IMG/VR virus record: IMGVR_UViG_3300027971_000101 | Span: 1-39,596 of that record | Source: a virus | Reading direction: 5' to 3' (one strand) | DNA length: 39,596 bases | In this document: piece by piece, positions 1 through 17,678 of the stretch | How the letters are laid out: each line of letters opens with the position of its first letter | Position numbering within the stretch: the stretch's first letter is position 1 | The notes under the pieces: generated by a model | What the model saw: only the letters and a program-made list of their open reading frames with translations | The model's database searches: none | Told to the model about the DNA's origin: nothing | Position numbers and translations under genes: made by a program

Positions 1-780
1 TTTTATTATTTTTTCCATGGCTGGGCTGTGCTAGATTGGTATCGAGGTTATGATCGAACTTTCCTAATAACCCCATGGCAACAGAGACAGATTAAAAAAA
101 CATTTTTTAGTGCAAATCGAATCATTGGCGGACTTAGACAACATCGAGTATTGATGTTGTATCATTTTGAAAAACTAGGCCTTATGCATAACTGGATAAG
201 TGCTAGTGCAATATGTCCAGCTGAACATATAGAGATCAAAGAAATTGCCAATTATTACATCAATCAATATCCTGACATTGTTGATACTGTTAGTAAGATA
301 GATCTACCCAGGCTATTCCCTGGTGAGGATACGCCGCGAATGAGTAGTTGTTGGTTAGATCAATTTGAACTATGCGCTGAAAGTTTGGTATATCATGTGA
401 CAGAAACTGTGTATACTGAACGCAGATTACAGCTTACAGAAAAAACATTCAAACCCATAGCACTGGGTATGCCATTTGTACTCACAGCCACAGTAGGCAG
501 TTTAGAATACCTGCGCAGTTATGGGTTTAAAACATTTGGAGATTTTTGGGATGAAAGTTATGATCTTGAACACAACGATTTTGTTCGAGCTGAGAAAGTA
601 GCTGCTGTATTGAAAAAATTAGATGATTTGTCTGCCTCTGCAAAACAAGAATTATTCGAAGCCTGTTGGCCAATCATTGAACACAATTGGAACTGGTTCT
701 ATCAAGGTAACTTTGAATCTGTATTGTGGCAAGAACTGTCTGACATGTTGGATTCAATCAAACTACATTTGACCCCATGA
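1..780 (+). CDS. TEK/DESYD-family protein, putative glycosyltransferase (5'-truncated)
   Basis: The reading frame is open from the first base of the window, so the gene is cut at its 5' end. A GTG at 28 is in frame, but complete relatives in this window are 298-392 residues, so it is probably not the true start. Seen motifs, in order: VTET, LTEKTFKPIALGMPF, YGFKTFGDFWDESYD and a C-terminal IEHN followed by aromatics. The same order occurs in four other proteins here (777-1955, 1926-3005, 6887-7783, 12056-13171). The acidic/TEK arrangement recalls nucleotide-sugar-binding C-terminal halves of glycosyltransferases such as GT10, but that is inference; the family function is not established. It overlaps the next gene by ATGA, suggesting translational coupling. 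Confidence 0.75.
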   Translation, partial: FYYFFHGWAVLDWYRGYDRTFLITPWQQRQIKKTFFSANRIIGGLRQHRVLMLYHFEKLGLMHNWISASAICPAEHIEIKEIANYYINQYPDIVDTVSKIDLPRLFPGEDTPRMSSCWLDQFELCAESLVYHVTETVYTERRLQLTEKTFKPIALGMPFVLTATVGSLEYLRSYGFKTFGDFWDESYDLEHNDFVRAEKVAAVLKKLDDLSASAKQELFEACWPIIEHNWNWFYQGNFESVLWQELSDMLDSIKLHLTP

Positions 781-1955
781 TTTATATAGCAGTTGACCAT
801 ATACACCCAGTATCACGCAGACCTATGCCCAATGGGATACCTGTGCATCAGCACGACCAGTTGGATTACATGGATGGTCGACGTTTAGATTTTCCTCGAA
901 TTATTTACTATCTGCGCGATTGTAAAATACCTGCTCGTGTAATCAGTACAGCTGATGCACCCATTGGTGCATGGTATCCAATGGTGTTAGGATGGTTTGA
1001 CTTTTCTCAAGATTATTTTGGTATGATCAGCAATGCTGCGTTTAAGCGTATAAAGAAAAAAGAAATGAAACTGATATTCACATATCATGAAGGTGATCAT
1101 CCTGGCTCTATCCGCAACCGCCTGGATCAGCTGTGTCAGCAATACAGCATTGATCCTGAATCAGTATGGTTGATTTCTGGTAATTCTTCAGCTGACCAAT
1201 ATCACAATACTGTGTACTGGCCCGAATTAGAATTCATGTACTGGCGCACTGTTGATCGTGAGTCAGGGGCAAAATATCATTCAAACACAAGATCACGTGC
1301 ATACACTGGACTGTGTAGAATTGACAAACTTTGGCGTAAAGTATTCATGAGTGATCTGTGGAGTCAAGGATTACACAATCGTGGATACTTTAGTTACAAT
1401 CAACATCTGTTGGGGAGTGAAGATGACTACTTTGGATGTGCATTAAACAACAATTATCTTGCTGCAAGTCAATCAAGAGTAGATGATTTTATTGCAGCAG
1501 GTCCGTTCTGTGTGGACAATCTTGACACTGTTGCCCATAACCAATACAATCTCAACCTAACAGAAATGTACTCAGATAGTTATTTTAACATTGTGTTAGA
1601 GACCATGATTGACGTAGATGCGTCCGGTGGGCAGTTTGTTACAGAAAAAACATGCAAACCCATATTCAACAACCAATTCTTTGTGGCAGTTAGTTCAGTG
1701 GATCATCAACGACACTTGCGTGAGTTGGGTTATCAGACATTTGGACGTTGTATAGATGAAAGTTATGATTCAATTGCCAACAATCAAGATCGATTTAACG
1801 CTGTATTAGAATTAACTAAAAAGCTAGCTGGGTCCAATTTAGACCAATTGCATAAATTATATACGGATCTTGCTCCTGAGATACAACATAATTCTCAGGT
1901 GTTTATAAATGGCATGTCAAATCGACTAAGAGCAGTTGTTCAACGAATTAATTAA
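777..1955 (+). CDS. TEK/DESYD-family protein, putative glycosyltransferase
   Basis: 392 residues; the ATG at 777 overlaps the preceding stop by ATGA. It is the longest member of the five-copy family in this window. Visible: an R-rich mid-region with KLWRKVFM and YFSYN (residues about 180-210), a VLET motif near 273, FVTEKTCKPI (TEK at 289-291), LGYQTFGRCIDESYD, and a C-terminal IQHN. The first 170 residues hold no motif I recognise. I infer a sugar-transfer role from the TEK-type motif and from neighbouring GT-A and carbamoyltransferase genes; a non-enzymatic role is possible. Its 3' end overlaps the convergent gene on the other strand by 30 bp. Confidence 0.75.
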   Translation: MIYIAVDHIHPVSRRPMPNGIPVHQHDQLDYMDGRRLDFPRIIYYLRDCKIPARVISTADAPIGAWYPMVLGWFDFSQDYFGMISNAAFKRIKKKEMKLIFTYHEGDHPGSIRNRLDQLCQQYSIDPESVWLISGNSSADQYHNTVYWPELEFMYWRTVDRESGAKYHSNTRSRAYTGLCRIDKLWRKVFMSDLWSQGLHNRGYFSYNQHLLGSEDDYFGCALNNNYLAASQSRVDDFIAAGPFCVDNLDTVAHNQYNLNLTEMYSDSYFNIVLETMIDVDASGGQFVTEKTCKPIFNNQFFVAVSSVDHQRHLRELGYQTFGRCIDESYDSIANNQDRFNAVLELTKKLAGSNLDQLHKLYTDLAPEIQHNSQVFINGMSNRLRAVVQRIN

Positions 1956-3005
1956 TCTGCCAACTTGATCAACTATGGTATGCATTTCGGTTTGATATAA
2001 TTTTGGTAATGTATCCCAAAAATGCAAACGATTGTGCTGTATCACTGGAACTAAATGATTTTTAATATTTTCCAACGTATGTACATCAAATTGACAGATT
2101 CTTATCACTTCTCTGAGTAAATTTTCAAATCTCTCGTGCGGGTGATCAATGAGATCGTAACTTTCATCAAAAACATCACCAAATGTTTTAAATCCTATAT
2201 CTTGCAATATTGATAATGCGCCCGACGAACTGAATACTAAAAATGGATGCCCATATGCCAGTGGTTTCATAATTTTTTCGCTTAGAAAAGCATTTCCATT
2301 TTCATCTATATAAGTCTCAGTAACAAACGACGCAAATGAATTTTGATAAAAATACTCTTGACCAGCAGACCAATAATTTTGATAAAAACTGTCTTGTTCA
2401 GTTGACGACCACCTGTTATGATTAACAAATTGATCATTCTCTAATGTGATAGGGATCAGTTGGTATAATTTTTCTAAATCTAAATTGCTATTGTACCAAG
2501 TCTGCCCAATAATGTCATTGGTCCGATCGTACACAGTTTTTTGACCTACTCCAAATGCGTCTCGACAATGATAACTAAAATAAAAATGGTCTAATAAGTT
2601 AAATTTGATCAAAAATTGCATCAGTGCTTGTCTATTCCATTGTGCTCTGTTATTCAATGACAAGAATGTTTTTATTGGTGTCTTGTTAGGAATGATTAAG
2701 CTGTTAACAATTTGTTGTGAATAATACGCATACGCATATTTTACATTGATAATTTTGCAGTTGAATTTTTGTTCAAACGATTGGGGGTATTTTCTATGCG
2801 TAATTACAATAGTAAAACTACCCCCAGCTTTAAATTTAGCTAATAGTTCTTCTAGTTCGTGAAATCTACACACTTCGCCGAAGCAAGTATAAATTACAAT
2901 TGGTTGATTTTTATATCCGTAAACATGCCCGGCATACTTATTACAAAGTAATACATCTGCACTAGCTAAAGATTCCAATTCTGGGTATGTATCGCTTTGC
3001 ATCAT
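1926..3005 (-). CDS. TEK/DESYD-family protein, putative glycosyltransferase
   Basis: 359 residues, last gene of the long minus-strand run. The start (ATG at 3005) overlaps the carbamoyltransferase stop by ATGA. Motifs: SLNNR (116-120), FVTET (237-241), LSEKIMKPLAYGHPF (SEK at 242-244, serine replacing the usual threonine), GFKTF (271-275), DESYD (280-284), and IQHN near the C-terminus. The N-terminal 110 residues look like an alpha/beta domain. Lysine, asparagine and isoleucine are frequent and the DNA looks AT-richer than the radical SAM genes, which would fit separate acquisition. Function is inferred only from the shared motifs and from the carbamoyltransferase neighbour. Confidence 0.75.
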   Translation of the reverse strand: MMQSDTYPELESLASADVLLCNKYAGHVYGYKNQPIVIYTCFGEVCRFHELEELLAKFKAGGSFTIVITHRKYPQSFEQKFNCKIINVKYAYAYYSQQIVNSLIIPNKTPIKTFLSLNNRAQWNRQALMQFLIKFNLLDHFYFSYHCRDAFGVGQKTVYDRTNDIIGQTWYNSNLDLEKLYQLIPITLENDQFVNHNRWSSTEQDSFYQNYWSAGQEYFYQNSFASFVTETYIDENGNAFLSEKIMKPLAYGHPFLVFSSSGALSILQDIGFKTFGDVFDESYDLIDHPHERFENLLREVIRICQFDVHTLENIKNHLVPVIQHNRLHFWDTLPKLYQTEMHTIVDQVGRLINSLNNCS

Positions 3006-4483
3006 GACAGTACGGTAACTCCATACAACCGCTGAAATCTATCAGCATCTACTCGATCATTTATCATTGGTTCTCCCCGTATGTTTAAGCTGGTGTTTAA
3101 TAACATAGGACAGCCAGTCATGAAATGCCATTTTTCTAATAGCAATCGAATTCCTGATCCATCTGCAGGAACTGTCTGTACACGACTAGTGCCGTCATGA
3201 TGAACAATAGCAGGAAATAATTCTGGATGCTTACAAGTTGCTACCACTTGCATATATCTACTGTTATCCCAGTGTCTGGGCATATCAAAATGCTCATGAA
3301 CATACTCTTCAAGAATAACTGGCGCAAAGGGTCTGAATTTTTGTCTGCGTTTGATTTCATTTACTTTACCTTTGATTGAAAAGCCACGAGGATCTGCTAA
3401 CAAACTGCGATTGCCTAATGCTCTTGGCCCAAATTCTGCTTTACCACTAGCCACACCCACAATCTTATTAGTGAGCAAATGATCCAATATGGCATTAACA
3501 GGATAGTTTCCAGAGATGTTATGCCCCAGGAAACTATCAACCCAATGAACTTTGTAACCATATCCCAAACTGGCTGCACCAAGACTATTACCAGCATCAC
3601 CAGGATTAGGCATAATCCATATGTGTTCATAAAAATCTCCTAACATACTATTAGCTACACAGTTTAACGCTACTCCGCCTCCATACACTAAATTTAGGCT
3701 ACGCCCTAACATCCGGGCACGACTAATGATATTACGTATCATTTGTTCTACTAGTAATTGTGCGCTACACGCAATATCCATTGGGTCAGCATCGGGCAAG
3801 AAATTATCATCAACTCCAACATGCAAATTTTGCACAAACTTGGTATAATCAGTTGGATTCAGTAGTTCAGCCTGCATCTCACGCAGATACTTAGGTTGGC
3901 CATATGCTGCCATACCCATGAGAATGTATTCTTCGTCTAGCGGCTGGAGTCCCACACGTTGAGTCATAGCTGAATAAAACAATCCAATGCTATGTGGATA
4001 TTGTTGACTCCACAGCTTCTTGTACTCGGCACGTCCGGTATCATCATTGTATGCTGCATCCCATATGGTAACTGTGTCAAACTCACCAATGGCATCTATC
4101 ACTACTACTGTGGCATCATTGTATGGACTGGTCTGGAATCCTGCTGCTGCGTGGCATAAGTGATGGCCGTGTGTGTGTATTCGTGGTCGATCCAGATCAT
4201 TGTAGATATTGCCTAGTAATCGATTCCAAGTTGGCCATTGAAATCCTTCTCCGCTGCGTAGCTGTCTAAATGCTTTTATCCAGGGACGTTCATAATAGTG
4301 ATATTCAACTTGATCCAAATCAACATGTGCTAACGCATCTAAAACTAATTCGAGACATATATCTCTATCGTGTTTTTTTTTGCTATAGCGTTCGCTATGT
4401 GCAGCAAACAAAATATTGCCAGAAGAATTCACCACACTGATAGCAGCGTCATGAAATCCAGCCGATATTCCTATGTAGTTCAT
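3002..4483 (-). CDS. Carbamoyltransferase, NodU/CmcH/TobZ type
   Basis: 493 residues. This family transfers a carbamoyl group from carbamoyl phosphate, via carbamoyl-AMP, to a hydroxyl, usually on a sugar or an antibiotic. Seen: N-terminal Kae1-like domain beginning MNYIGISAGFHDAA, a metal-type HxxxH at H107/H111 (GHHLCHAA), YGGGVALNC (267-275), NPGDAGNSLGAA, then GPRALGNRS (352-360), RPFAP (384-388) and NTSLNIRGEP (463-472), which mark the C-terminal carbamoyltransferase domain. All expected motifs are present, so the enzyme looks active. It ends about 20 residues after the last motif, shorter than typical members of 550-600 residues. It lies in an ATGA-linked chain: a 33-aa microgene upstream and a TEK-family gene downstream. 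Likely substrate: a sugar hydroxyl made by this gene cluster (inference). Confidence 0.93.
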   Translation of the reverse strand: MNYIGISAGFHDAAISVVNSSGNILFAAHSERYSKKKHDRDICLELVLDALAHVDLDQVEYHYYERPWIKAFRQLRSGEGFQWPTWNRLLGNIYNDLDRPRIHTHGHHLCHAAAGFQTSPYNDATVVVIDAIGEFDTVTIWDAAYNDDTGRAEYKKLWSQQYPHSIGLFYSAMTQRVGLQPLDEEYILMGMAAYGQPKYLREMQAELLNPTDYTKFVQNLHVGVDDNFLPDADPMDIACSAQLLVEQMIRNIISRARMLGRSLNLVYGGGVALNCVANSMLGDFYEHIWIMPNPGDAGNSLGAASLGYGYKVHWVDSFLGHNISGNYPVNAILDHLLTNKIVGVASGKAEFGPRALGNRSLLADPRGFSIKGKVNEIKRRQKFRPFAPVILEEYVHEHFDMPRHWDNSRYMQVVATCKHPELFPAIVHHDGTSRVQTVPADGSGIRLLLEKWHFMTGCPMLLNTSLNIRGEPMINDRVDADRFQRLYGVTVLS

Positions 4484-4581
4484 TTATAGATAAATGGATC
4501 TCTTTTGCGTAATTCTTTTAATTTTTTACGATAGCGAATCTCAAGGGCAATCTTTGCCCATAAACGTTTAATCCAGTTCAT
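4480..4581 (-). CDS. 33-aa basic microprotein embedded by double ATGA overlap
   Basis: A 34-codon frame starting ATG at 4581 and ending TGA at 4480. It overlaps the stop of the upstream 346-aa gene by ATGA and the start of the carbamoyltransferase by ATGA, so it fills the gap with no spare base. This is strong evidence that it is translated. The product begins MNWIKRLW, is rich in Lys/Arg (12 of 33, net charge about +9), is predicted to be an amphipathic helix, and ends RDPFIYK. Function unknown. It could be a small partner of the neighbouring enzymes; a ribosomal peptide substrate is conceivable because radical SAM genes are near, but it lacks an obvious leader/core layout. Confidence 0.75.
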   Translation of the reverse strand: MNWIKRLWAKIALEIRYRKKLKELRKRDPFIYK

Positions 4582-5618
4582 TTTAATTTCCTTATTTGTT
4601 GTTGTTCATAGTCTGGATCGGTCCAGTTATACTCATATGTAGCTTCTGATTCGCTGGTTCGTATTTTATATACATCTAAATGTGCTGCTAGCTGTGCCCA
4701 TATCTGCCTGTAATCCGTAGTTCCAAAACTGCGTAGTAGATCCACCTGAGCTATCTTAGGATGGCCAATGGTCAATGATTTATCTTCAGGATCAAATTGA
4801 TTTTTTACTAACCATTCACGAAATTCGTTGAGTATTTTAGTTTGCCAAGGAAATGTGCCTGGATCATTGGCCCATTCAATATCAAAATCTCCAGCAGCTT
4901 CAGTCTGTGCTCGCATTGTGCTTGTGACCAATTCTCCTACTCGACTGTTGTAACCTTCATCATTGAATACTTCCCAATGGTGTTTGCCTACTGCTTTATT
5001 TACTCCTACATACACGCCGCCTAATTGACGATTAATTGTTTCAATTCCAAACAACTCATAATCCTCAGTATCTAACGTAAATCGTGGAGCCTTAAGCCAA
5101 CACATTAGCTGCGAAGGTCTACGCCATTCAGGTGCGTCCGTCAGCTTACGCATACTCAATACTAAACTTTCAAGTTCATGACATAACAAATTTAACTGAC
5201 GTATATGCCATCGTGTGGTATTATCGGCGGCTGTATAGTAAGGACTCATCACACCTGACACTCCTTGCAGATCTTCAAAGTATCTATGTAATAGATTCAG
5301 GTGAGCATGGTCAGTTCCTCCATCCTCTACTACTGTATTGGCTGGACTATACGAATCCTGTATAGTATATCCCAACTCTGCTGCATTTACAGCATGAATA
5401 CTGCGATTAATTTGCGTACACAGATATTCTAATGTCCGAGCACTTTCAGTCCACCCAATCCAACAGTAGTTTTTTTCTAAGTGATAGTCGGACTTGAGAA
5501 GATGATTCAATGATGCCAACCACTTATGTGCAATACTATTGTTGTACACATCAATATACACAGTCAATATGTGGTTATTGTTGCCGCGTAAATCCATCTC
5601 AATTGAATTGTTAAGCAT
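4578..5618 (-). CDS. Conserved-looking hypothetical protein (346 aa)
   Basis: The start at 5618 overlaps the upstream radical SAM gene by 8 bases (ATGCTTAA). No catalytic motif is recognised. Visible segments: an N-terminal strand-rich part (ILTVYIDVYNN), a charged DDH-poor middle with HLNLLHRYFEDLQ (about 106-118), then LGGVYVGVNKAVGKHHWEV (about 200-218), DFDIEWANDPG (about 244-254) and a C-terminal IGHPKIAQVDLL. From memory this resembles an uncharacterised protein family of marine phages and bacteria that sits beside radical SAM and sugar genes, but I cannot confirm it here. Conserved His, Asp and Trp in the C-terminal half could form an active site. It is coupled to the 33-aa microgene by ATGA. 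Confidence 0.8.
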   Translation of the reverse strand: MLNNSIEMDLRGNNNHILTVYIDVYNNSIAHKWLASLNHLLKSDYHLEKNYCWIGWTESARTLEYLCTQINRSIHAVNAAELGYTIQDSYSPANTVVEDGGTDHAHLNLLHRYFEDLQGVSGVMSPYYTAADNTTRWHIRQLNLLCHELESLVLSMRKLTDAPEWRRPSQLMCWLKAPRFTLDTEDYELFGIETINRQLGGVYVGVNKAVGKHHWEVFNDEGYNSRVGELVTSTMRAQTEAAGDFDIEWANDPGTFPWQTKILNEFREWLVKNQFDPEDKSLTIGHPKIAQVDLLRSFGTTDYRQIWAQLAAHLDVYKIRTSESEATYEYNWTDPDYEQQQIRKLK

Positions 5619-6900
5619 TGTCCATCCACCATTTTAATACTTCGGGTCTTGATGCTAGGATATCTGTCATTGTTATTCGTTGAGTACGTATTTGTTCTAA
5701 TTGTAGCACACGGGCACGGCCTCGAGCAAGACCTTGTTTGTATTCACTGGGCCATTGTTCTTCAAATGTGGGTCGATTCTTTAATTGAATCAGCACTGCC
5801 TGCATGGCTCCGTGAGTTTCCAAGATCAACTCATCCAACCATGGATCCAGTAGATATCTGGGCAACGCCAATGGGCTCATTACAATATCTGGACTAAACG
5901 AGAAGATAACTTTAGCAAGTATATCTACATTGAATTGTTTAGCAAGTTTTGTAATGTTGACAATTTCAAACATTCCAGGCAAAGTGAGAGTAAAATCAAT
6001 TCTGACTTGACGTGGGTGACGTCTTATTGCAACTGCGTTATGAAAGTTTTCAAGCCATCGGTCATAATCAAGACCTGTTCTAATGTATTCTCCAATTGTG
6101 CCTGTGCCGTCCAGACTTGCACATATCTGCCAATTTCCAAGTCTAGAAAGAATGTCACGATAGAGATTGATCCCACGGTATTCCACCCTGGACAAGTTGG
6201 TATTATATCTAGCATATACCTGTGGCCCGTCCTTTAATTCTATAATACGTTGCATATATCGCCAATGCTGTTCGTACATCAATGGCTCACCACCAACCCA
6301 GTACACTTCTTCTACTCTGTGCTGTTCCACAGCATCACTGAACTCGCGTTCAATTTGACTGTCTTGAAACTTGGAAATTTGTTCTCTAACGTCAGGCTTC
6401 ATCCAGTTGTTTTTGGGATCAGCCCAGTTGACCATGCTGTGAGTTTTTTGTTCCGTTTCCCAACTACTGCTCAACATATCTCCGCAAGTTCTACATTTAA
6501 AATTGCAAAGATTGCTAAATCTATAATCCCAACTCACTGGTAGCACATCACAAGTACCATCCAGGTGTGTGGCCAACATTAAGTTATCATATTTGTGCTT
6601 AAATAAATGCCAAAAGTATGTGCGATATACATCTGTGTTTAGCAACCGATCATTGCATACTTCGCATTCAGGCAGTGTTTCACCGGCTAACATGCGTCTA
6701 CGTACGGATCGCATGTGGTCATTATTCCAGTGTTGTTCCAATGTGATAGGTATATATGTGCCAGTACCAGACTTAGTATCTATATATTGTGCAAAGTTTT
6801 GAGCTGGCTCTCGACTGGCACAACACATACGTCTTTCCGTTTGTGGCGAGAGATATGTATGCACCCACGGTGCTAGACATAAGGTATCAGGTGCTTGCAT
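5611..6900 (-). CDS. Radical SAM protein, N-terminal twitch type (1 of 5)
   Basis: 429 residues. The radical SAM cluster motif is C132-x3-C136-x2-C139 (CNFKCRTC), with GGEP at 203-206 and a later CASLDGTG strand, typical of the SAM-binding TIM barrel. An N-terminal cysteine-rich part precedes the barrel: C8 in CLAPW, C26-C27 (MCC) and C79-x2-C82, matching an N-terminal twitch/SPASM-like domain that binds an auxiliary Fe-S cluster. The reaction is unknown; such enzymes use a 5'-deoxyadenosyl radical for C-C, C-S, epimerisation or similar chemistry, often on peptides or sugars. It overlaps the downstream 346-aa gene by 8 bases and the upstream TEK-family gene by 14 bases. Confidence 0.9.
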   Translation of the reverse strand: MQAPDTLCLAPWVHTYLSPQTERRMCCASREPAQNFAQYIDTKSGTGTYIPITLEQHWNNDHMRSVRRRMLAGETLPECEVCNDRLLNTDVYRTYFWHLFKHKYDNLMLATHLDGTCDVLPVSWDYRFSNLCNFKCRTCGDMLSSSWETEQKTHSMVNWADPKNNWMKPDVREQISKFQDSQIEREFSDAVEQHRVEEVYWVGGEPLMYEQHWRYMQRIIELKDGPQVYARYNTNLSRVEYRGINLYRDILSRLGNWQICASLDGTGTIGEYIRTGLDYDRWLENFHNAVAIRRHPRQVRIDFTLTLPGMFEIVNITKLAKQFNVDILAKVIFSFSPDIVMSPLALPRYLLDPWLDELILETHGAMQAVLIQLKNRPTFEEQWPSEYKQGLARGRARVLQLEQIRTQRITMTDILASRPEVLKWWMDNA

Positions 6901-7783
6901 ATTCTAACAAAGGTTCAATAATATCTGTGACTATAAGAGATTCTACCAATACTTGATTAAAGAAGTGATCATGATTATGTTGTAATCGGCGTTGAGTTTC
7001 TGAGTCGTATTGCATTGGGACAAAATTATTAATATTTTTTACAACTGCATCCAGCCTCTGATCAAAATCAACAATATCATCGTAGGATTCGTCAAAGATA
7101 TTATCATATGTTTCAAAGCCCATTTGCTTGAGTCTTTTCAATGAGTGGTGTTGTCCTATCAGCAAAAAAGGATGATAATATGCCAAGGCCTTCAAAGTTT
7201 TTTCTGTTACCCAAATGCATTCATCGTATTGAAAAGTTTCTACTACTGTGCTAAAATATGTGTTATCATACCAGTCTGGATTAAGAAATCGATAATATCG
7301 ATTATCAGTTGGATCTATGTCATTTGGAAGTTTTTTATCCCGATAACTCCAAATAAAATTATCAAGCACAGAGTTGAGTTTGCTAACAATTTGATCTCTT
7401 GTGTCGTTGACTCTGCTAATTGGCATAAATGACAATTTAGAATATTGTTTATGAGGAGTGTATTGATTATACCCCCAATCACGCCACCACAAACTTTCCT
7501 CGTACCAACGATAGTTCCGATGCTCCAACCAATAGTAATCAGTTCTTGAGTTTGGTACTTCCCACAAGTTATCAATCACTACCTTATACCCCTGGTCCCT
7601 TAATCTTCTACAGTAATCATCATCTACATGTTGCCACCAGACCATGAATAATGTATTTGACTTATGGTAGATAATGTCTGGATCATAATATACTATATCA
7701 AAATATTTACTCCATAATGATTGTAAAAAGTTTGCCTTAAAACTAGTAGACTCAGTGGGTCTTAAAATAATTTTAGTTTTCAT
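6887..7783 (-). CDS. TEK/DESYD-family protein, putative glycosyltransferase
   Basis: 298 residues, the shortest complete member. Motifs: YFSTVVET (about 177-184), WVTEKTLKALAYYHPF (TEK at 193-195, with Ala in place of Pro after KxLK), MGFETYDNIFDESYD (GFETY at 222-226, DESYD at 231-235), and LQHNHDHFFN near the end. The N-terminal half (WWQHVDDDYCRRL, then a Trp/Tyr-rich stretch) is not alignable by eye to the other members except around FMPISRVND. It lies between two radical SAM genes and overlaps both (14 and 11 bases). Coding DNA looks AT-rich. Function inferred from motifs and context only. Confidence 0.75.
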   Translation of the reverse strand: MKTKIILRPTESTSFKANFLQSLWSKYFDIVYYDPDIIYHKSNTLFMVWWQHVDDDYCRRLRDQGYKVVIDNLWEVPNSRTDYYWLEHRNYRWYEESLWWRDWGYNQYTPHKQYSKLSFMPISRVNDTRDQIVSKLNSVLDNFIWSYRDKKLPNDIDPTDNRYYRFLNPDWYDNTYFSTVVETFQYDECIWVTEKTLKALAYYHPFLLIGQHHSLKRLKQMGFETYDNIFDESYDDIVDFDQRLDAVVKNINNFVPMQYDSETQRRLQHNHDHFFNQVLVESLIVTDIIEPLLEYAST

Positions 7784-8981: not shown

Positions 8982-9024
8982 AATTTGTTTCAGTTATAGA
9001 TGTAAATTTTTTCCATGTCTTGAT

Positions 9025-10731
9025 CTATAATAAACTTTGGAGTTCGGGTATGATATCTAACAACTTTTCTGAACGTATACTATCTAGTTCATGAGTCTTA
9101 CGCCAGAAAGTATCAATGAGATTAGTGTTGTCTGTGGCCATCATGAAATTAATGGCTGACTCAAATCCTGACGAAGCTCGATTTAGTTTATCTTTTGTGA
9201 TTAACCATTCTAAGTGTTCTTGATATTTCACCCGCAGACGTTGCTTGTACTTGATAGGAGCAATGTCAATTCGATAATGTTCTGGATCTTGCAAGATGTT
9301 TACATTGAGGTCTTGAGGTTTTATGAATCCTCTTTTGACCCAGTCTTGATGGAAATCAGGAAGATGCCATGCATTCATTATGCTAAGAGTGGGAGAGATA
9401 TAGAAGTCCACTTGTGGACACACTTGCAACATCTTGATCCTATTTTGCTCAACTTGATTCCAATCTGTACCTTTGCGTATGTATTCAGCATATCTTCCTG
9501 AACCATCAAGGCTGGCACCTACTGATACGCTATCGAATAGTTTCCAATATTCAAAAACACTTTTACCTTTGAGATCTGTATGTGTGAAGTTTGTGTTGTA
9601 AATTAATTTAACCTCAAATCGTTCTCGACGAACAAGTTCGTCCAGGATTTGATAATGTTCTTCCATTAACAAAGGCTCGCCACCGGCAAAGTATATCTGT
9701 TCTACATAATCAATGTGCGGCAACAACTGCTCCCATACATCAGTTTCTGTACGCCCAGCATAATTCAATACCTGATTTTGTTTTTTCCATTCACCGCCAG
9801 CCAGTTTGGATTGATCTTGATACCATTGGCTAGAGAAAATATGTCCACAACTACGACATTTGAGATTGCAAAGGTTTGAAAAACGGATATCCCAATATAC
9901 CATCTCAAATCTATCTAATGTTCCGTTATCTTTTGTTTCTGTAATTCGACTAATTAGATGTCCATGATGTTTATTTGCCGACTTCCTCCCTGAGAAGAAT
10001 CCAGAAATTTCTTGTTCATAGCATTTAGTACAGGCAGTGCTGCTTTTCTCTGACAGCATGTTTACTCTAAGCTGCTTCATTGGAGTGTCATTCCATATTT
10101 CTAACATGGTATTGGTTCTTAGATTGCCTATCTGACCTACAGCATTGCTCATGCAGCATGGAAATGCTTGACCGGTAGGCCAGGCATGCAAATGAATCCA
10201 CGGGTACATGCAAAATTTTTCACTGTCTGCTAACAAAAACTTCTCACGTTCACTTAGTTGATTTAGATTGATCTTGAGTGGATTAGAGGATCCATATTGA
10301 TATATTTCTTTTTTCTCGGAAGGATGGTGTTTGACAATCTCAGGAACATTGGTTCCTTCATCAATATACATACCGGTGATAGGAATAGCATCCGAACTAA
10401 TTTTGGTCACAAACTCAAGTTCTTTATTCAAATTAGGATTGTTAGATAATATGATAATGAAAAAGTTGCTAACATCCACTTTGTTGGCAATTATTTGCAG
10501 ATTTTTTAAGATAAGCCCTACACTGTTATTTTTAACATATACATCGCCACTTTTTTGGATAAACAAGATGCGTTGATTATTGGTGTATTCATCTCTGTGT
10601 ATTTTTTTGAATTCTGAATCTAACCAAATTTGAGCACACTCATAAGTCATGCTGTGCCAATGATCAAGTTCAATCACAGCAAGTATATCATGCTGTTTTT
10701 TTAATTGATCAATTTGTTCTTGAAATGTCAT
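9025..10731 (-). CDS. Radical SAM protein with extra N-terminal domain (3 of 5)
   Basis: I place the start at the ATG at 10731, which overlaps the upstream stop by ATGA; an in-frame TTG at 10746 would add five residues but is less likely. 568 residues. Residues 1 to about 165 form an additional domain absent from its paralogues (strand/helix-rich: ILAVIELDHWHSM, RILFIQKSGDVYV, NFFIIILSNN), with no motif I recognise. Then follow C174 (CMYPW), C192-C193, C234-x2-C237 and the radical SAM motif C288-x3-C292-x2-C295 (CNLKCRSC), then FAGGEPL. The N-terminal domain may bind the substrate or a partner. Reaction unknown. Confidence 0.88.
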   Translation of the reverse strand: MTFQEQIDQLKKQHDILAVIELDHWHSMTYECAQIWLDSEFKKIHRDEYTNNQRILFIQKSGDVYVKNNSVGLILKNLQIIANKVDVSNFFIIILSNNPNLNKELEFVTKISSDAIPITGMYIDEGTNVPEIVKHHPSEKKEIYQYGSSNPLKINLNQLSEREKFLLADSEKFCMYPWIHLHAWPTGQAFPCCMSNAVGQIGNLRTNTMLEIWNDTPMKQLRVNMLSEKSSTACTKCYEQEISGFFSGRKSANKHHGHLISRITETKDNGTLDRFEMVYWDIRFSNLCNLKCRSCGHIFSSQWYQDQSKLAGGEWKKQNQVLNYAGRTETDVWEQLLPHIDYVEQIYFAGGEPLLMEEHYQILDELVRRERFEVKLIYNTNFTHTDLKGKSVFEYWKLFDSVSVGASLDGSGRYAEYIRKGTDWNQVEQNRIKMLQVCPQVDFYISPTLSIMNAWHLPDFHQDWVKRGFIKPQDLNVNILQDPEHYRIDIAPIKYKQRLRVKYQEHLEWLITKDKLNRASSGFESAINFMMATDNTNLIDTFWRKTHELDSIRSEKLLDIIPELQSLL

Positions 10732-12059
10732 AATGAGTTGTACCAAGTTTTTAATGCCGGAAATATCATGCCAAGATCTTTGCCGCGACGTTGATCATAT
10801 TGTGTATAAAATTGCTTAAAATCGTTGTGTAATTTGGGCATTTCAAATGATTCACTATGTGGAGTTTTTACCACATCAAGATAATCAATCAGTCTTTGTA
10901 ACTGGTTAATTTCATGTTCGTGCAAGAATTCACTGTGCTGATTGGCAACCAACCATGCCTGTAATCTGTGTGCATACAGCATACGTAAATCGTCGGGCAA
11001 TACCAATGGTGATTGAAAACTAGGAAAGCGCAGTATGTTCAATGTCCAACTCAATGCATCACGACCATATTCAGTTTTCCATTGCAACATGCATTCTAAA
11101 AATTGATCTAACGTATCCAGGCACAATGCATTGATTGTGTTCATCACATGTATACCTCGAAATTTTCCGCTGTCTAACAGTCGTTCTACATTGTTGGCCC
11201 AGTCATCCCAGACCAATCCATCTCTGATGTATTCGGCTTGTGACCCAATACTTTCATTAGAAGTATAGATATCTACCTCAAGACCTTGTATACTGGTCAT
11301 TAGCCGATCAAGATCTACTGCTGTGCCCAAGTTTGAGTTGATAGCCAATCGTGTGTGACTGCGCCCTGGATTGTTTTTAAACCAGTCAATTAATTTCCAG
11401 GTATCACCACTCATCAGTGGCTCGCCTCCGGTTATTCGAAGTTCCTGTAGTGTTTGATGAAGATCTGTTTCCCACCATTTAAAAAATGCTTCAACATAGG
11501 GATTAGATTCACCAAACTTATACAGTTGACTAGATTCATGTATATGAGTAAAGTGATTACGGCCATCACTAACCAATCCTGTGTATGCTCCATGCTTTCG
11601 TATATCATTAACCCAGGTGCTACTGAAAGCAGGATTGCAGTAACTACAAGCAAACTGGCAAGTGCGGTCAAATGCAATTTCAAGTGTGCGTAAATTGACA
11701 TCTTGATCAACTGGGGTGTTAAAGGCTTCATTTAATAACTCTATAGGGTAAATTTTACTCTTGTACACACGATCACTGATGGCGTCACGTCCAATGTCTT
11801 CAATCTTCCAGCAATATTCACAGCCCGACGGCCGATCACCATGCTGCATCTGATCACGTTCAAATTTCTTTTTTGTGGTGTTATGTAATGCTGACGGATT
11901 GTGTTTGATATCATTTACGTTTATAGCATGCGCCGGGGGATGATGACAACTGGTAGTCATGCCACTGCCTAACCAAATGGTAGCATTGTACCATTTGGCT
12001 GCACAAAAACTTTCACTTAGATTGTCTAGTACAGTGCGTTTAAAATCTAAATCGGTCAC
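10728..12059 (-). CDS. Radical SAM protein, variant N-terminal cysteine motif (4 of 5)
   Basis: 443 residues; the start overlaps the upstream gene stop by four bases and its stop overlaps the next start by ATGA. Cluster motif C134-x3-C138-x2-C141 (CQFACSYC), then RITGGEPLM. The N-terminal region differs from subfamily one: C19 in FCAAKW, then C38 in SCHHPPAH, and C80-x2-C83 (CEYC). It shares this with the gene at 13161-14525, so the five enzymes split into two types. The CC pair of the other type is replaced by a single Cys followed by His-His/Tyr-His, which may change the auxiliary cluster ligation. Substrate unknown. Confidence 0.9.
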   Translation of the reverse strand: MTDLDFKRTVLDNLSESFCAAKWYNATIWLGSGMTTSCHHPPAHAINVNDIKHNPSALHNTTKKKFERDQMQHGDRPSGCEYCWKIEDIGRDAISDRVYKSKIYPIELLNEAFNTPVDQDVNLRTLEIAFDRTCQFACSYCNPAFSSTWVNDIRKHGAYTGLVSDGRNHFTHIHESSQLYKFGESNPYVEAFFKWWETDLHQTLQELRITGGEPLMSGDTWKLIDWFKNNPGRSHTRLAINSNLGTAVDLDRLMTSIQGLEVDIYTSNESIGSQAEYIRDGLVWDDWANNVERLLDSGKFRGIHVMNTINALCLDTLDQFLECMLQWKTEYGRDALSWTLNILRFPSFQSPLVLPDDLRMLYAHRLQAWLVANQHSEFLHEHEINQLQRLIDYLDVVKTPHSESFEMPKLHNDFKQFYTQYDQRRGKDLGMIFPALKTWYNSL

Positions 12060-13171
12060 AGATTATTTTGTATAAAGTTGAAAAAACGGTACGGAAATTC
12101 ATCACGTATCTGTGGGCCTATATCAGCCATATGTTGTTGATTATACTTACTTATTGACTGGGCTGCGACCAGAAATTGATTCAGGTCGCTTGCACATAGA
12201 TCTTCAACTACTTGTGCCGTTCGATCTAACCGATCTTGATTGTTGTCTATTAGATCAAATGATTCGTCGATGAGAGTGTGATAGGTTTTGAATCCCATGT
12301 TATGCAGATCTCTGTAGAATCCACGATTGGCCACAACCACAAACGGGTGACCCATGGCAATGGGTTTATAAATCTTTTCAGTCCGAAAACTGTAAGGATA
12401 ATCAAATACAGTTTCAGTTACCAAACTAAAATAGGTATCAATGTACGATTCGGCGCGGATGTATACATCGCCCCACTGGTTGTTGAACAGCTCATGTTTA
12501 ATAAACAATTGTTGATATTGATCTTTAAGACCGTCAAGATATTGTTCTACTTCATATTCAACTGGCAATAGCTGTATCTCGGATGGGCTGTTACATAGAT
12601 CAGTTTGATATGTATGGTGGTATACCGGAGTTGTATCTAGATTGGTCCAAAGTGCATGTTTCAACAAATGTGCATCACGCATCTTTTCTATCATGTATTT
12701 TCTGTGAGGGCGAGTGCGTCCATTTAGAAACAAGAATTTGTAAGGTTTGTTTGGTGTGTTGTATATTTCATCTACACGAGCACCTTGGTCAATATTTTGT
12801 TCGTAGCCCAAGACTCGATTGAGATAGCAATCATACATCATACAATTAAGTTCGGGTTCCATATCGCCGCCGCCTAACAACAGTAATTTTTTTTGCACAA
12901 CTAATTCTAGTAGTCCCAGTCGTTGACATTGAAGTTTAAGCACAATCGATCCTTCACTTGGGTTGGCCAACACAGGCAAAAAAAATCCTGTAGTGGCCAA
13001 TTCTTTTATCCTTATATAATGTTGATTTACTGTTTGTCTGGCAAAGATTGTGATTGAATTGGCCTGTGGCTCATGCTGATCAAAATCCCAAAATGTATCA
13101 TCTACTAGATGTTTGATTTCGGGATAGATTTCACAGGCAGTGTCGCAAATGATTCTTCTATTACCTAGCAT
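12056..13171 (-). CDS. TEK/DESYD-family protein, putative glycosyltransferase
   Basis: 371 residues, between the two variant radical SAM genes (overlaps of 4 and 11 bases). Motifs: FLNGRTRPHR (about 148-157), FSLVTET (about 258-264 overlapping the motif block), FRTEKIYKPIAMGHPF (TEK at 264-266), MGFKTYHTLIDESFD (DESFD at 302-306). The LNGRxRxHR segment is more explicit here than in the other copies and recalls a basic, phosphate-binding stretch. The first 140 residues hold no recognised motif. The usual HN near the C-terminus is YN here. Likely glycosyltransferase-related by motif analogy; unproven. Confidence 0.77.
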   Translation of the reverse strand: MLGNRRIICDTACEIYPEIKHLVDDTFWDFDQHEPQANSITIFARQTVNQHYIRIKELATTGFFLPVLANPSEGSIVLKLQCQRLGLLELVVQKKLLLLGGGDMEPELNCMMYDCYLNRVLGYEQNIDQGARVDEIYNTPNKPYKFLFLNGRTRPHRKYMIEKMRDAHLLKHALWTNLDTTPVYHHTYQTDLCNSPSEIQLLPVEYEVEQYLDGLKDQYQQLFIKHELFNNQWGDVYIRAESYIDTYFSLVTETVFDYPYSFRTEKIYKPIAMGHPFVVVANRGFYRDLHNMGFKTYHTLIDESFDLIDNNQDRLDRTAQVVEDLCASDLNQFLVAAQSISKYNQQHMADIGPQIRDEFPYRFFNFIQNNL

Positions 13172-14525
13172 GTAAACTACACTGTCTCCACCAAGTGATC
13201 ATTTCAGGAAAGGTGTTTTCAAAGTCTGTACCTCTACGGCGGTCGTGTTCGGTAAAAAATCTATAGAAATCTGCCTGTGCAGTAGGTTGTGGCTGTGCCG
13301 ATCTCATCCAGGCTATGTCACGTTCTAGACGTTGAACTTCATAGTCTTTGAACCCGTGAAACGGATTATCAGCAGTTGTAAGATTTGCTAACATGAAGTC
13401 CCTGGCCTGTTCTAGTTTTGCAGCATAACTTTCTGGCAGGGTCTGTAGACTTTGCCAAGCAGGTTGGCGTAGTACAGGCGTGTCAAACCATACACGTTGA
13501 TATGTTTTACTGTGTGTGCAACGCAGAGCCAGTATCCATTTCATCAGTGGCAAAAATCCTGTTACACTTAGATTGTTCATTGTGATAATAAATGTAAGAC
13601 TGTTGCGATACGGAATGTCTGTGAGATATGTTTCTACATTGCGTTGCAATCTTTCAAAATTCAATCCATGACGTATGTATTCAGCTTGTGGTCCTATGCC
13701 TGAATCAACACTCACATACTGCATAAAGTGTTCAATGTTGGTATTGCATAGTCGTTGAACATGGTCAAAGTATTTTTGTGATAGTTCAGGCTCTACAGAG
13801 AAATTTGATGTGACTGCTAAATGCAAATCACTCTTGGGATGTTCCAACACATAGTCAAACACTCGATAGGTATTTCGATCCATCAAAGGCTCACCACCGG
13901 TCATGCGAAAGTGTTTGAGTTCTGGATACAGGGTGGGCCACCATGCCCAGAATGCTTCTACATAAGGGTTGTGATCACGGGCAGGGATAGGCCTGCGATG
14001 GCCGCTAAAATGCTCAGCAGCGTTATGAGGAACCAAAGTAGGAAAGGCGCCGTGGCGTTCAACTTCTTGTTGCCAGCTAGAGCTGAACTGCGGGCTGCAA
14101 TAGCTGCATTTAAGATTGCAGGCATTGTTGAAATTGACTTCCACATACGACGGTACAACATCTTCTTCTCCGGTTGAGTTTTTTATCTGTTCAAAATCTA
14201 CTGCTGCCCAAGGTTCGCCAGACCTATAATGACGATCGCTCAGCTTGCCAAGATCTTCCATGTTCCAACAATAACTACATTCACTAGGACGTTGTTGTTG
14301 CAGCATTATCTTACGCTGTGCTTTTTTGTGCTGGGTATTATGCAAAGCCGCAGGATTAATCTTTATTGCATCAGGATCTATTGGGTGCAATGGCGGATGA
14401 TAGCATGAGTTATTTAACCCTGTGGTCAGATGTAAGCTGACCTGTTTCCATTTGGCCAAACATAATGCCGGGCCAAGATCAGCATGCATCTGTTCAGCAG
14501 ACGATAGAAAATTGCTTTTGCTCAC
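13161..14525 (-). CDS. Radical SAM protein, variant N-terminal cysteine motif (5 of 5)
   Basis: I choose the GTG at 14525 as the start: it lies 5 bases after the upstream stop at 14531, gives an N-terminus of the same length as the paralogue at 10728-12059, and avoids a 64-base overlap; an ATG at 14489 is the alternative. 454 residues. C22 (CLAKW), C41 (SCYHPPLH), C83-x2-C86 (CSYC), then C126-x3-C130-x2-C133 (CNLKCSYC) and MTGGEPLM. It is the closest paralogue of the gene at 10728-12059, sharing NPAALHNT-like and YCWxxED segments. First radical SAM gene after the GT-A-like cluster. Confidence 0.88.
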   Translation of the reverse strand: MSKSNFLSSAEQMHADLGPALCLAKWKQVSLHLTTGLNNSCYHPPLHPIDPDAIKINPAALHNTQHKKAQRKIMLQQQRPSECSYCWNMEDLGKLSDRHYRSGEPWAAVDFEQIKNSTGEEDVVPSYVEVNFNNACNLKCSYCSPQFSSSWQQEVERHGAFPTLVPHNAAEHFSGHRRPIPARDHNPYVEAFWAWWPTLYPELKHFRMTGGEPLMDRNTYRVFDYVLEHPKSDLHLAVTSNFSVEPELSQKYFDHVQRLCNTNIEHFMQYVSVDSGIGPQAEYIRHGLNFERLQRNVETYLTDIPYRNSLTFIITMNNLSVTGFLPLMKWILALRCTHSKTYQRVWFDTPVLRQPAWQSLQTLPESYAAKLEQARDFMLANLTTADNPFHGFKDYEVQRLERDIAWMRSAQPQPTAQADFYRFFTEHDRRRGTDFENTFPEMITWWRQCSLHAR

Positions 14526-14530
14526 AAGAA

Positions 14531-15463
14531 TTACCAACCTTCTTGCTGACGTATTACATCTATTTCTCTTACCATTACACCACGGTTGTGCCAATTGCTG
14601 CGATAATGATGTTTGAAAAATGCACTTGCTTCTACTGTGAGCATGTGCATGGGCAGATCCAATTGCGTATGCAATTCGTTGGCAATGTTGTTGCTCACAT
14701 GTTCAGGTTGTTCATCTTTTACAGTATTCCATAGTTCTGCTAATGCATCAAAATTTTGTACCTGCAAATAATCCCAATTTGTGAGCATGGTCATATATGT
14801 GCCTTGTCGGGCGCCAGCCATGGCCCAGTATCCGTAGTCTGTATCTGCTCCCACATTGTGCCAAATAGTAAGATGGTCAAGATTGCGTTGATGCACCCTG
14901 GCTTGAAATTCAGTCACACTAGGCCGGCGACCACGATCTAAACACATCTTTACACCTTCTCTAAATCCTGCACGCCAAGCCTGGAATGCTGATCCATTGG
15001 GGTATGTGGTAGAATAGCAGTCATGCATGGACCAGTACAGTGGATCAAAACAAAACTCTACTTGTGTTTCTGTACGACCGTCGGTGTTTTCATGTGTGTG
15101 CATGGCTTGCACATAGGCTCTGGTCCAGGAACTCAATCCACCATTGCCATACATGAGTCCATTCACATGGTTACGTGCTCTCCATCTAAACACAGCATGT
15201 TCATGATCTTCAGTGGGGAATGACAGTGTTTGATTGAAGAATTTTGGATCAGGAAGATTGTCTCCATCAATCAAGATGAAACGTTCTGTGGTGCTGGCAT
15301 CTGCTGCTGCTTTATGGGCAGCATCACTTCCTTTGACCCCATCTACTCGTGTGGCCCAGGGCACCATATTCCTAATTTTGACCCAGTGTTCTTCCTTTTG
15401 TGATTCATCATATGTTAGATAAACGCAATCCAAATCTGCAATATCAATTTGTGTCAACGACAT
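14531..15463 (-). CDS. GT-A-like glycosyltransferase, DGD motif
   Basis: Start taken at the ATG at 15463 (GGAAG about 10 bases upstream); an ATG at 15508 would overlap the previous gene by 65 bases. 310 residues. IDGDN at 65-69 is a DxD-type metal/nucleotide-sugar site following a hydrophobic strand (RFILIDGDN), as in GT-A glycosyltransferases. Further visible: a His/Trp-rich middle (FCFDPLYWSMHDCYS) and a C-terminal region with HxxW pairs. Predicted to transfer a sugar in the cytoplasm using a UDP/GDP donor. Ends in TAA 5 bases before the radical SAM gene start. Confidence 0.75.
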   Translation of the reverse strand: MSLTQIDIADLDCVYLTYDESQKEEHWVKIRNMVPWATRVDGVKGSDAAHKAAADASTTERFILIDGDNLPDPKFFNQTLSFPTEDHEHAVFRWRARNHVNGLMYGNGGLSSWTRAYVQAMHTHENTDGRTETQVEFCFDPLYWSMHDCYSTTYPNGSAFQAWRAGFREGVKMCLDRGRRPSVTEFQARVHQRNLDHLTIWHNVGADTDYGYWAMAGARQGTYMTMLTNWDYLQVQNFDALAELWNTVKDEQPEHVSNNIANELHTQLDLPMHMLTVEASAFFKHHYRSNWHNRGVMVREIDVIRQQEGW

Positions 15464-15788
15464 TTTGTTTTTTCTTCCAATATTGGCCAGGTTGCTGTGC
15501 GACCACAACAGTCACATCATTTGTGTGGCAAAGTGTACCAGACTTGCTGGGTATAAGTTTAGTTATTCTGGTTTGTCGCTGGCGTACTAACTTTCCATCA
15601 ATAACCTTGACTGAGTGGTCTTGTGATGCAAACTGTTCAGGAGTAATATCAATATGCTTACCAGGTAAATCTTCATGGCTATAAAACAATGGCTCGCCAA
15701 CATCATTGTGGTAGAGTCTATAATACACAGGTTTGGGTTCGGGCCACTGAATGTCTTTCCAAAAGCCCAAAAATTCTTCTTCAGTCAT
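15444..15788 (-). CDS. Small hypothetical protein (114 aa)
   Basis: Start at 15788 overlaps the upstream stop by 8 bases; its stop lies 20 bases inside the next gene. Visible: an acidic N-terminus (MTEEEFLGFW), PVYYRLYHNDVGEPLFYSHEDLPG, and a strand-rich end with SKSGTLCHTNDVTVVV. One Cys and one His fall in the GTLCHTNDV segment. It has the look of a small beta-rich phage protein. No function can be assigned. It sits inside the three GT-A-like genes, so a structural or accessory role to that set is plausible. Confidence 0.75.
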   Translation of the reverse strand: MTEEEFLGFWKDIQWPEPKPVYYRLYHNDVGEPLFYSHEDLPGKHIDITPEQFASQDHSVKVIDGKLVRQRQTRITKLIPSKSGTLCHTNDVTVVVAQQPGQYWKKKQNVVDTN

Positions 15789-16554
15789 TGCGCCAATCCT
15801 TCAGATGGTAATGCACTGCACCCCACTGTGCTACAGTGTTGATTCTTAATGGATTAGATTCCCATACTAATTCTTTTGTCCAATCGTGTGTTTGAGTTGG
15901 AATCATATAGCGTTTCATGTGTACCATACGTGGATATGTTGCAAAGGGCATGGTCACACGCTCTGGGCTCATGATCTGTGCTGCCATGGCATATACCAAA
16001 TCAGTTGATGCAGTTTCATCGGGGAATTTTAACAGAGTTTTGTAGCTGGTCCAATGTTCAAAAATCTTTCGAACCAATCGAAAAAACTCTTGTGCAGTTT
16101 GACTCACCCTCCAGTATGTTATGGCATTGTAAACGTCTGGCAAGTGGTTGGTATCAAATACTTTTCTGTAAAATCTGCTGTCGGCTGGTTGATCATAAAA
16201 GTTTCTGGCGCCGGTGGATATCACAACATCTCGATGTTCAAACATAGTCCACCAATGATCTATAGCACTGGCAATGACCATATCTGCTTCCAGTTTGATA
16301 GTTTGCCTGAACGGACTTGCACCAAACACTTGCCAATCATTGGCATAAGGATTGTCACTAAGTGGAAATGCAAAAGTTTTATGATAGTTGAATAGGTCAC
16401 AATCGTATTCTTCAGCATTGGTCAACAAACAAATTTCAGCATCAGGATGGAAATGCCGAATAGACCCAGCCAGCTGATTGGCACAGGCAACATAGTCTAC
16501 TGTATCAGAGTTTTGTGCAGTAATAACATATCCGCGTTCAGACTGAATTGGCAA
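15781..16554 (-). CDS. GT-A-like glycosyltransferase (EAD motif)
   Basis: 257 residues with a TTG start at 16554; no ATG lies close, and AGGAG at 16560-16564 is ideally spaced 6 bases upstream, supporting this start. The strand YVITAQNSDTVDYVACANQLAGSI and the KLEADMVIAS segment (EAD at 89-91, a DxD variant) match the nucleotide-sugar-binding core of GT-A enzymes, such as family 8-type transferases. The stop codon is 8 bases inside the next gene. It resembles the following GT-A-like gene in length and motif position, so the two may be paralogues. Donor and acceptor are unknown. Confidence 0.75.
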   Translation of the reverse strand: MPIQSERGYVITAQNSDTVDYVACANQLAGSIRHFHPDAEICLLTNAEEYDCDLFNYHKTFAFPLSDNPYANDWQVFGASPFRQTIKLEADMVIASAIDHWWTMFEHRDVVISTGARNFYDQPADSRFYRKVFDTNHLPDVYNAITYWRVSQTAQEFFRLVRKIFEHWTSYKTLLKFPDETASTDLVYAMAAQIMSPERVTMPFATYPRMVHMKRYMIPTQTHDWTKELVWESNPLRINTVAQWGAVHYHLKDWRND

Positions 16555-17341
16555 TGATATCTCCTAGATGTTTCTTACCCATGGCATGAAAGTCCATGCT
16601 GTGCCAATCTATCTTTTTTGGTTGACCTTGATCTTGATACTTGATTTCAAAATGATCTGTGTCAATCTGAGAGAGCACATGCTCGGGCAGCACACTGGCC
16701 AAACTCCAAGGTATGTCGTGTACTTTTAATGTGTGTCCGCTTACTATGCCCAAAGCAATGCTGAGTGCATAATCATTGCGATAATTGGGACCTTGCATGT
16801 GATATAAATCTCGGTAGTGTGTCCAGTTTTGTTTGACCATGTTCATACAATCAAAGATGTATTGTGCAGTATTGCCTTTACGGAACATCATCACTGTGGC
16901 CCACCACATGGGAAATTTATTTTGCCCAAAATAGTTTAGCCCTTCAAACTGATTGATGGCAGTAACATCCCAGGCCAGGCGATGACACGCAAAGTCTTGC
17001 GGCATATCAAGCACATTTCTTAATTCATTACTACAAACCACATAGTCGGCATCTAGCACTAGGGTTTGATCCCAAGGAGTTAGACTGTATGCATCCGTTC
17101 GTCCAGTATTGTACCATGTGATAGTTTCTTTGTAATCATCAAAATATCGTGTGCCGCCGCTGGCAGGATCTGCGTGTATAACTTGATCAAACTTGATCAG
17201 TTGAGCATGATCGGTACAGTTTGTAACTACTGCTACCGGGATGTTGAGATGTCGCCGGATACGATCAGCATTCCATGCAGCCATTTTCACATAGTCGGTT
17301 TGTTCATTGTTGAATGCAAAGATTACAGCACCAGTGGTCAT
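16538..17341 (-). CDS. GT-A-like glycosyltransferase, DAD motif
   Basis: Start at the ATG at 17341, which overlaps the upstream stop by ATGA; a longer reading to 17398 is unlikely. 267 residues. N-terminal strand GAVIFAFNNEQTDYVKMA, then LTPWDQTLVLDADYVV with a DxD site at 97-99 (DAD) and the usual hydrophobic strand before it. WW and HYRDLYHMQGPNYRNDYAL in the second half fit an acceptor-binding region. Predicted sugar transferase; likely a paralogue of the gene at 15781-16554, as both share an N-terminal pattern and DxD spacing. Confidence 0.78.
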   Translation of the reverse strand: MTTGAVIFAFNNEQTDYVKMAAWNADRIRRHLNIPVAVVTNCTDHAQLIKFDQVIHADPASGGTRYFDDYKETITWYNTGRTDAYSLTPWDQTLVLDADYVVCSNELRNVLDMPQDFACHRLAWDVTAINQFEGLNYFGQNKFPMWWATVMMFRKGNTAQYIFDCMNMVKQNWTHYRDLYHMQGPNYRNDYALSIALGIVSGHTLKVHDIPWSLASVLPEHVLSQIDTDHFEIKYQDQGQPKKIDWHSMDFHAMGKKHLGDIIANSV

Positions 17342-17643: not shown

Positions 17644-17649
17644 TAATGT

Positions 17650-17678
17650 ATTATAAATGAAAAAAGGGCAAAAGTCTA
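17650..17678 (-). promoter_or_regulatory. Candidate sigma70-like promoter for the accessory operon
   Basis: Reading the minus strand: TAGACT (17678-17673, 4 of 6 matches to the -35 consensus), 17 bases, then TATAAT (17655-17650, perfect -10). The predicted start site falls close to the ATG at 17643, so the transcript would be nearly leaderless. The -35 element overlaps the terminator stem-loop. This is seen by eye only and could be chance in AT-rich DNA, but it is the only strong -10 in the spacer between the two operons. Confidence 0.4.

Follow-up and report, generated by a model that had tools for sequence, protein, structure and literature searches.

A conserved operon of radical SAM, glycosyltransferase-like and carbamoyltransferase genes in uncultured large phages: a candidate pathway for glycan assembly and tailoring

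The window analysed here is a 39,596-bp virus contig (IMG/VR record IMGVR_UViG_3300027971_000101), in which positions 1–17,341 encode fourteen putative enzymes: five radical SAM (rSAM) proteins, SAM1–SAM5; five members of the TEK/DESYD family, TEKa–TEKe; three GT-A-like proteins, GTA1–GTA3; and a carbamoyltransferase, CARB. Profiles and motifs confirm this count, made in a first-pass annotation, and the near absence of spacing described there is real, most gene junctions of the operon being overlapping. The inventory itself had to be extended and corrected, as U346, U114 and a 33-residue open reading frame had been left out, TEKa and TEKb lie on the opposite strand, and TEKa is incomplete. Twelve of the enzymes form, with U346, U114, U149 and the 33-residue gene, a sixteen-gene operon on the minus strand (Table 1), towards which TEKa and TEKb (1–1955) converge from the plus strand. 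The window is a fragment of its genome, and both it and its relatives are contigs that may be incomplete. No tRNA or Rfam matches were found in the window.

Table 1. Features of the enzyme region and its border with the fibre genes (window positions; aa, amino acids; nt, nucleotides)
Feature	Positions	Strand	Description
TEKa	1..780	+	TEK/DESYD family, GT-B-like; 5' end truncated at the window edge; full-length (~375 aa) in relatives
TEKb	777..1955	+	TEK/DESYD family; copy in relative L006 91% identical
TEKc	1926..3005	-	TEK/DESYD family; final gene of the operon; rare among relatives
CARB	3002..4483	-	Predicted NodU/TobZ-type O-carbamoyltransferase
33-aa micropeptide MNWIKRLWAKIALEIRYRKKLKELRKRDPFIYK	4480..4581	-	4-nt overlap with the U346 stop and with the CARB start
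U346	4578..5618	-	Highly conserved protein, family unknown
SAM1	5611..6900	-	N_Twi_rSAM radical SAM enzyme
TEKd	6887..7783	-	TEK/DESYD family; optional in relatives
SAM2	7773..8981	-	N_Twi_rSAM
SAM3	9025..10746	-	N_Twi_rSAM; N-terminal extension of ~170 aa
SAM4	10728..12059	-	N_Twi_rSAM
TEKe	12056..13171	-	TEK/DESYD family; structure predicted
SAM5	13161..14594	-	N_Twi_rSAM; start uncertain
GTA1	14531..15463	-	GT-A-like, DGD motif
U114	15444..15788	-	Small protein, family unknown; kept in the conserved order
GTA2	15781..16554	-	GT-A-like, EAD motif
GTA3	16538..17341	-	GT-A-like, DAD motif
U149	17338..17643	-	Small protein, family unknown; first gene of the operon; start reassigned to the ATG at 17643
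Promoter-like GTAGAC and TATAAT boxes	17650..17679	-	TATAAT 6 nt before the U149 ATG; position conserved in relatives
Terminator-like hairpin	17665..17689	-	10 pairs and a T-run; closes the fibre operon
FIB329	17706..18695	-	Fibre-region protein; syntenic upstream neighbour
FIB567	18708..20411	-	Tail-fibre-like protein

The module is a conserved operon of uncultured large phages. More than 100 IMG/VR contigs, the longest of 374 kb, share the order GTA3-GTA2-U114-GTA1-SAM5-TEKe-SAM4-SAM3-SAM2-(TEKd)-SAM1-U346-CARB, which places the module beyond chance association; eighteen large relatives (G001–G018, e.g. L274–L291) span 192–374 kb. Protein searches of IMG/VR returned 157 related stretches for U346 and at least 599 for SAM4. 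All 80 loci centred on U346 contain SAM1, 77 contain SAM3, 76 SAM2, 75 SAM4, 75 CARB and 70 SAM5, and 79 loci centred on SAM4 contain GTA3 (74), U149 (73) and FIB329 (69); these sets overlap and include near-identical contigs, so the counts are not numbers of independent events. The relatives of the module genes are thus not strewn at random, and the co-occurrence that the first-pass annotation called for exists for the core module, while additional rSAM copies are scattered. The enzyme genes are under purifying selection, the ratio of non-synonymous to synonymous substitution rates (dN/dS) against the nearest relative being 0.04–0.15 for the genes where it was computable. Among 50,697 GenBank phage records, tblastn at 1e-5 gave no match for U346, SAM4, TEKb or GTA3; SAM3 matched three GenBank phage records at 1e-3. 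Our searches of the available literature retrieved no publication describing the module.

All five rSAM proteins score 275–396 bits against the NCBIfam profile NF033640 (N_Twi_rSAM), above its curated cut-off of 170 bits, and retain the radical SAM CX3CX2C motif together with the N-terminal SPASM/twitch cysteines. The CX3CX2C motif is kept in each of the 1007 full-length rSAM reading frames of the loci. In a tree of 81 sequences, the labels SAM1 to SAM5 require five changes, where four is the minimum: SAM1 and SAM2 each form one fully supported clade, and well-supported clades also unite the core sets of SAM3, SAM4 and SAM5, the exceptions being a few extra copies on long branches. SAM1–SAM5 are therefore ancient orthologous clades and not redundant. 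The N_Twi_rSAM family at large is here represented by five fixed orthologues per operon and by 7–21 copies per large contig. Single N_Twi_rSAM insertions were seen in G001–G018 among apparent gp32, UvsX, UvsW, primase/helicase and terminase genes.

The five TEK/DESYD proteins are one family, absent from Pfam. They have 17 invariant positions in common and are 22–25% identical to TEKb; comparison of their sequences with Pfam, with the PDB and with known glycosyltransferase (GT) families gave no meaningful hit. A TAL-effector identity for TEKb, suggested by a PDB sequence search, was judged spurious, since the similarity was confined to one short stretch that hit repeat proteins and a profile of the family gave no hit. 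The very confident predicted model of TEKe (pLDDT, the predicted local distance difference test score, 95.9) has as its leading structural matches in the PDB nearly all GT-B glycosyltransferases, albeit with a best Foldseek E-value of 0.005 and a template-modelling (TM) score of about 0.4. In this predicted fold it would be close to WaaG, PglA and POGLUT, though with weak structural scores and no Pfam or PDB sequence match. A Bdellovibrionia contig carries two TEK genes adjoining GT9, GT2 and UDP-glucose/GDP-mannose dehydrogenase genes. We infer from the predicted fold that TEK is a putative, divergent GT-B glycosyltransferase family. For GTA1–GTA3 the first-pass label of GT-A-like is partly supported, by the DxD-type metal-site motifs (Table 1); no significant family or structure match was obtained for them, only sub-threshold matches to GT2 and glycogenin. 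Next to TEKa in relatives (L105:14911-17505) lies a large protein (438–1330 residues) with tandem PDPxxPPYIYVFGNQW-type repeats, whose C-terminal part resembles GTA1.

CARB matches both Carbam_trans_N and Carbam_trans_C above cut-off (PF16861, 4e-45; PF02543, 2.5e-34), carries the motif EFGPRALGNRS and counts NovN, GdmN and TobZ among its relatives. To judge from these features it is a genuine O-carbamoyltransferase of the NodU/TobZ type, with the same Pfam domains and motif as NodU, TobZ, NovN and the Nol-like phrog_1601. It departs from these in being coupled to the unannotated 33-residue partner gene, and shares about 29% identity with the cyanophage copies listed; the cyanophage and pelagiphage records that we inspected showed no KRDPFIYK-type peptide. 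The micropeptide ends in KRDPFIYK, and its gene, sharing ATGA overlaps with both U346 and CARB, is by this arrangement translationally coupled. It is found in 78 of the 80 U346 loci. Codon analysis of 97 distinct copies gave a ratio of non-synonymous to synonymous polymorphism (pN/pS) of 0.066 for the C-terminal half; the search pattern required the last few residues, while positions 16–26, which it did not require, are conserved too. A tblastn search of GenBank phages was uninformative for this peptide, since low-complexity filtering may mask it.

A scan of viral contigs for KRDPFIYK followed by a stop codon, made independently of the module, gave 80 peptide loci. A CARB homologue is present in 69 and is the next gene in 60, although some of these homologues are short or cut by contig ends. 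As this adjacency recurs in many loci outside the module, the KRDPFIYK peptide marks, and is a partner of, this carbamoyltransferase clade. In one group of other phages the micropeptide-CARB pair is flanked by genes for a primase and a DnaB-like helicase; the gene product preceding the peptide there was considered as a distant U346 and rejected, being a primase. On one large contig (L276:12463-15958) an N_Twi_rSAM gene occupies the same slot between primase and helicase, which looks like an insertion hot spot.

The micropeptide could also be a scaffold or carrier, with the rSAM, GT and CARB enzymes working on it or with it towards a modified glycopeptide or small molecule, in the manner of a ribosomally synthesised and post-translationally modified peptide (RiPP). 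Its near-constant presence, its constrained C-terminal half, its four-nucleotide coupling to U346 and CARB and the resemblance of N_Twi_rSAM to peptide-modifying SPASM enzymes all speak for such a role, but a conserved C-terminus and a variable N-terminus are the reverse of ordinary RiPP precursors, which have a conserved leader and a variable core. In addition, many loci that hold the peptide together with CARB yielded no rSAM or TEK, which ties the peptide to CARB and not to rSAM. We consider the scaffold role unlikely.

The surroundings of the module in relatives are rich in sugar genes. DegT aminotransferases, NAD epimerases, SGNH hydrolase-like proteins, an FkbM methyltransferase, a GFO/IDH/MocA oxidoreductase and UDP-glucose dehydrogenase are interspersed with it or lie beside it. 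DegT occurs in all 18 large contigs, and an amidinotransferase family in 93 loci is closest to the inosamine-phosphate amidinotransferase StrB1 (5.6e-65). The window ends inside TEKa, and in relatives the DegT genes lie just past that point. A 2-deoxystreptamine aminoglycoside pathway, suggested by the StrB1-like amidinotransferase, the TobZ-like CARB and the twitch rSAM proteins, was rejected: 2-deoxy-scyllo-inosose (DOI) synthase, of the 3-dehydroquinate (DHQ) synthase family, was found in none of the 18 large contigs, and the amidinotransferase lies outside the window.

Of the two products proposed in the first-pass annotation, a complex glycan and a modified peptide, the glycan is favoured and the peptide has less behind it, because of the GT-B-like predicted fold of TEK and the nucleotide-sugar genes adjoining the module in relatives. 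That a multi-step pathway is encoded agrees with the conserved order, the separate orthologous rSAM clades and the low dN/dS values. The best-supported reading, to which we give roughly even odds, is a glycan-assembly and tailoring operon in which GT-B-like and GT-A-like enzymes would transfer sugars in the cytosol and the product would be tailored by radical chemistry and O-carbamoylation. In its favour, Vibrio phage K566 has, independently of this module, several N_Twi_rSAM genes grouped with GT8 and GT4-like genes, although no TEK, U346 or micropeptide was found there. In the presumed order of steps, TEK and GTA enzymes would transfer nucleotide-activated sugars, supplied in part by DegT aminotransferases, epimerases and the amidinotransferase, whose genes flank the module in relatives but are outside the window or absent from it. 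Each of the five N_Twi_rSAM proteins would then perform a different radical step on sugar residues, for example epimerisation, dehydrogenation or deoxygenation, and CARB would O-carbamoylate the product, perhaps helped by the coupled micropeptide in a docking or carrier role; U346 may also take part. All steps would be cytosolic, and the most likely acceptor would be a protein of the phage itself, for example the tail fibre encoded next door.

Several points weigh against this assembly and tailoring pathway. Peptides are commonly modified by SPASM/twitch enzymes, and to our knowledge no substrate of N_Twi_rSAM, and no function of the family, has been established. Many of the 7–21 N_Twi_rSAM genes on each of the 18 large contigs sit singly among replication genes, so that not all serve this operon. 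The Foldseek scores of TEK are low, the GT-A fold assignment of GTA1–GTA3 is weak, and the sugar-supply genes (DegT, amidinotransferase) are not in the window. A one-to-one pairing of TEK with rSAM genes in distant loci was also tested and is unsupported, the two being adjacent no more often than chance would give (17 versus 14.1; 112 of 500 shuffles). Finally, a terminator and the operon's own promoter lie between the enzyme and the fibre genes.

This border bears on the destination of the product. The hairpin after FIB329 has a z-score of −4.0, and downstream of it a promoter-like GTAGAC...TATAAT precedes U149; of 36 relatives whose start could be identified, 25 have an exact TATAAT in the last 25 bases. 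Within this conserved stretch (17641–17689, minus strand), the short distance from the −10 box to the U149 ATG suggests a nearly leaderless transcript, and the conserved terminator and promoter indicate that the enzyme operon is probably transcribed apart from the fibre genes. The T4-type late-promoter motif TATAAATA was not found in the window. The enzyme genes do adjoin the fibre genes, as first described, but with these signals in between, and with similar cassettes elsewhere in phage genomes, the adjacency is weaker evidence than it seemed; N_Twi_rSAM genes also lie between core replication genes, and the location beside fibre genes is thus not decisive. That the product goes to the virion, one of the two surfaces first proposed, is a conjecture, given the separate promoter and the peptide-CARB pairs between primase and helicase genes elsewhere. 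A more specific scheme, a new huge-phage biosynthetic system in which ribosomally produced micropeptides with a KRDPFIYK end, paired with a carbamoyltransferase, act as carriers and form the docking or attachment point for five rSAM enzymes and the new GT-B-like family to assemble a hypermodified glycan destined for the virion, appears to us decidedly improbable.

The other surface is that of the host, where O-antigen or capsule units might be modified during infection, for instance to block other phages. The separate promoter and the many sugar genes of the relatives are compatible with this, as is the cultured cyanophage S-CAM1, whose carbamoyltransferase sits in a heptose gene cluster, beside nucleotide-sugar genes and near a tail fiber-like gene, a likeness to the module. 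A PagP gene near the N_Twi_rSAM cluster of Vibrio phage K566 points the same way. However, no clear membrane helix was seen in the module proteins, which thus include no clear membrane protein, and no Wzx flippase or initiating transferase (WbaP) family was found in the 18 large contigs. This disfavours a self-contained export of host glycan; host enzymes could still supply these functions. Modification of the host surface in place of the virion is in our view rather unlikely.

DNA could be a further target, CARB carbamoylating a modified base such as 5-hydroxymethylcytosine (5hmC) and the GT and rSAM proteins adding more. A phage-type carbamoyltransferase acts in this way on 5hmC (PMC8670742), and it would fit that other phages have the peptide-CARB pair flanked by primase and helicase genes. 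Yet in the known system the carbamoyltransferase occurs together with a homologue of thymidylate synthase, in modified contigs mostly one with Asp177, and carbamoyltransferases of unmodified contigs adjoin glycosyltransferases (PMC8670742). In the 18 large contigs the genes for thymidylate synthesis are mutually exclusive, with ThyX only in 14 and one ThyA-family gene with an Asn motif in four, and no dCMP hydroxymethylase was seen, though the contigs may be incomplete. Since the known enzyme acts on 5hmC and goes with that mostly Asp177 homologue, DNA carbamoylation of this type is disfavoured, and hypermodification of DNA in general seems very improbable.

For the proposed glycan operon, glycosylation of virion proteins by mycobacteriophages (Freeman 2023, cited in PMC12619734) offers a precedent of phage-encoded glycosylation. 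It concerns other phages, and the citing text of PMC12619734 does not mention rSAM or carbamoyl chemistry. Pelagiphage Mosig EXVC030M has a carbamoyltransferase beside nucleotide-sugar genes and adjoining an aminotransferase and a MoaA-like gene, the latter differing from the module proteins in having no match to the N_Twi_rSAM profile. If the glycan reading is right, the operon would be among the most elaborate known for viral sugar chemistry, and radical enzymes would be standard equipment of uncultured large phages. A function would be gained for a large, unassigned radical SAM family, TEK would be a new glycosyltransferase-like family, and the micropeptide partner of the carbamoyltransferase clade would become a testable question. 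U346, whose viral matches are uncharacterised phage proteins only, one of them from Agrobacterium phage Atu_ph07, and whose predicted structure found no fold match in the PDB, would likewise be a new protein family.

Two further observations were made. A 335-kb contig binned as Candidatus Neomarinimicrobiota (PBPT01000016.1, L271) carries a divergent GTA3-GTA2-GTA1-SAM-TEK module beside a fibre-like gene; this contig is possibly a huge phage. On the minus strand of the window, positions 21231–34505 are a single reading frame of 4424 codons, presumably encoding a giant virion protein.

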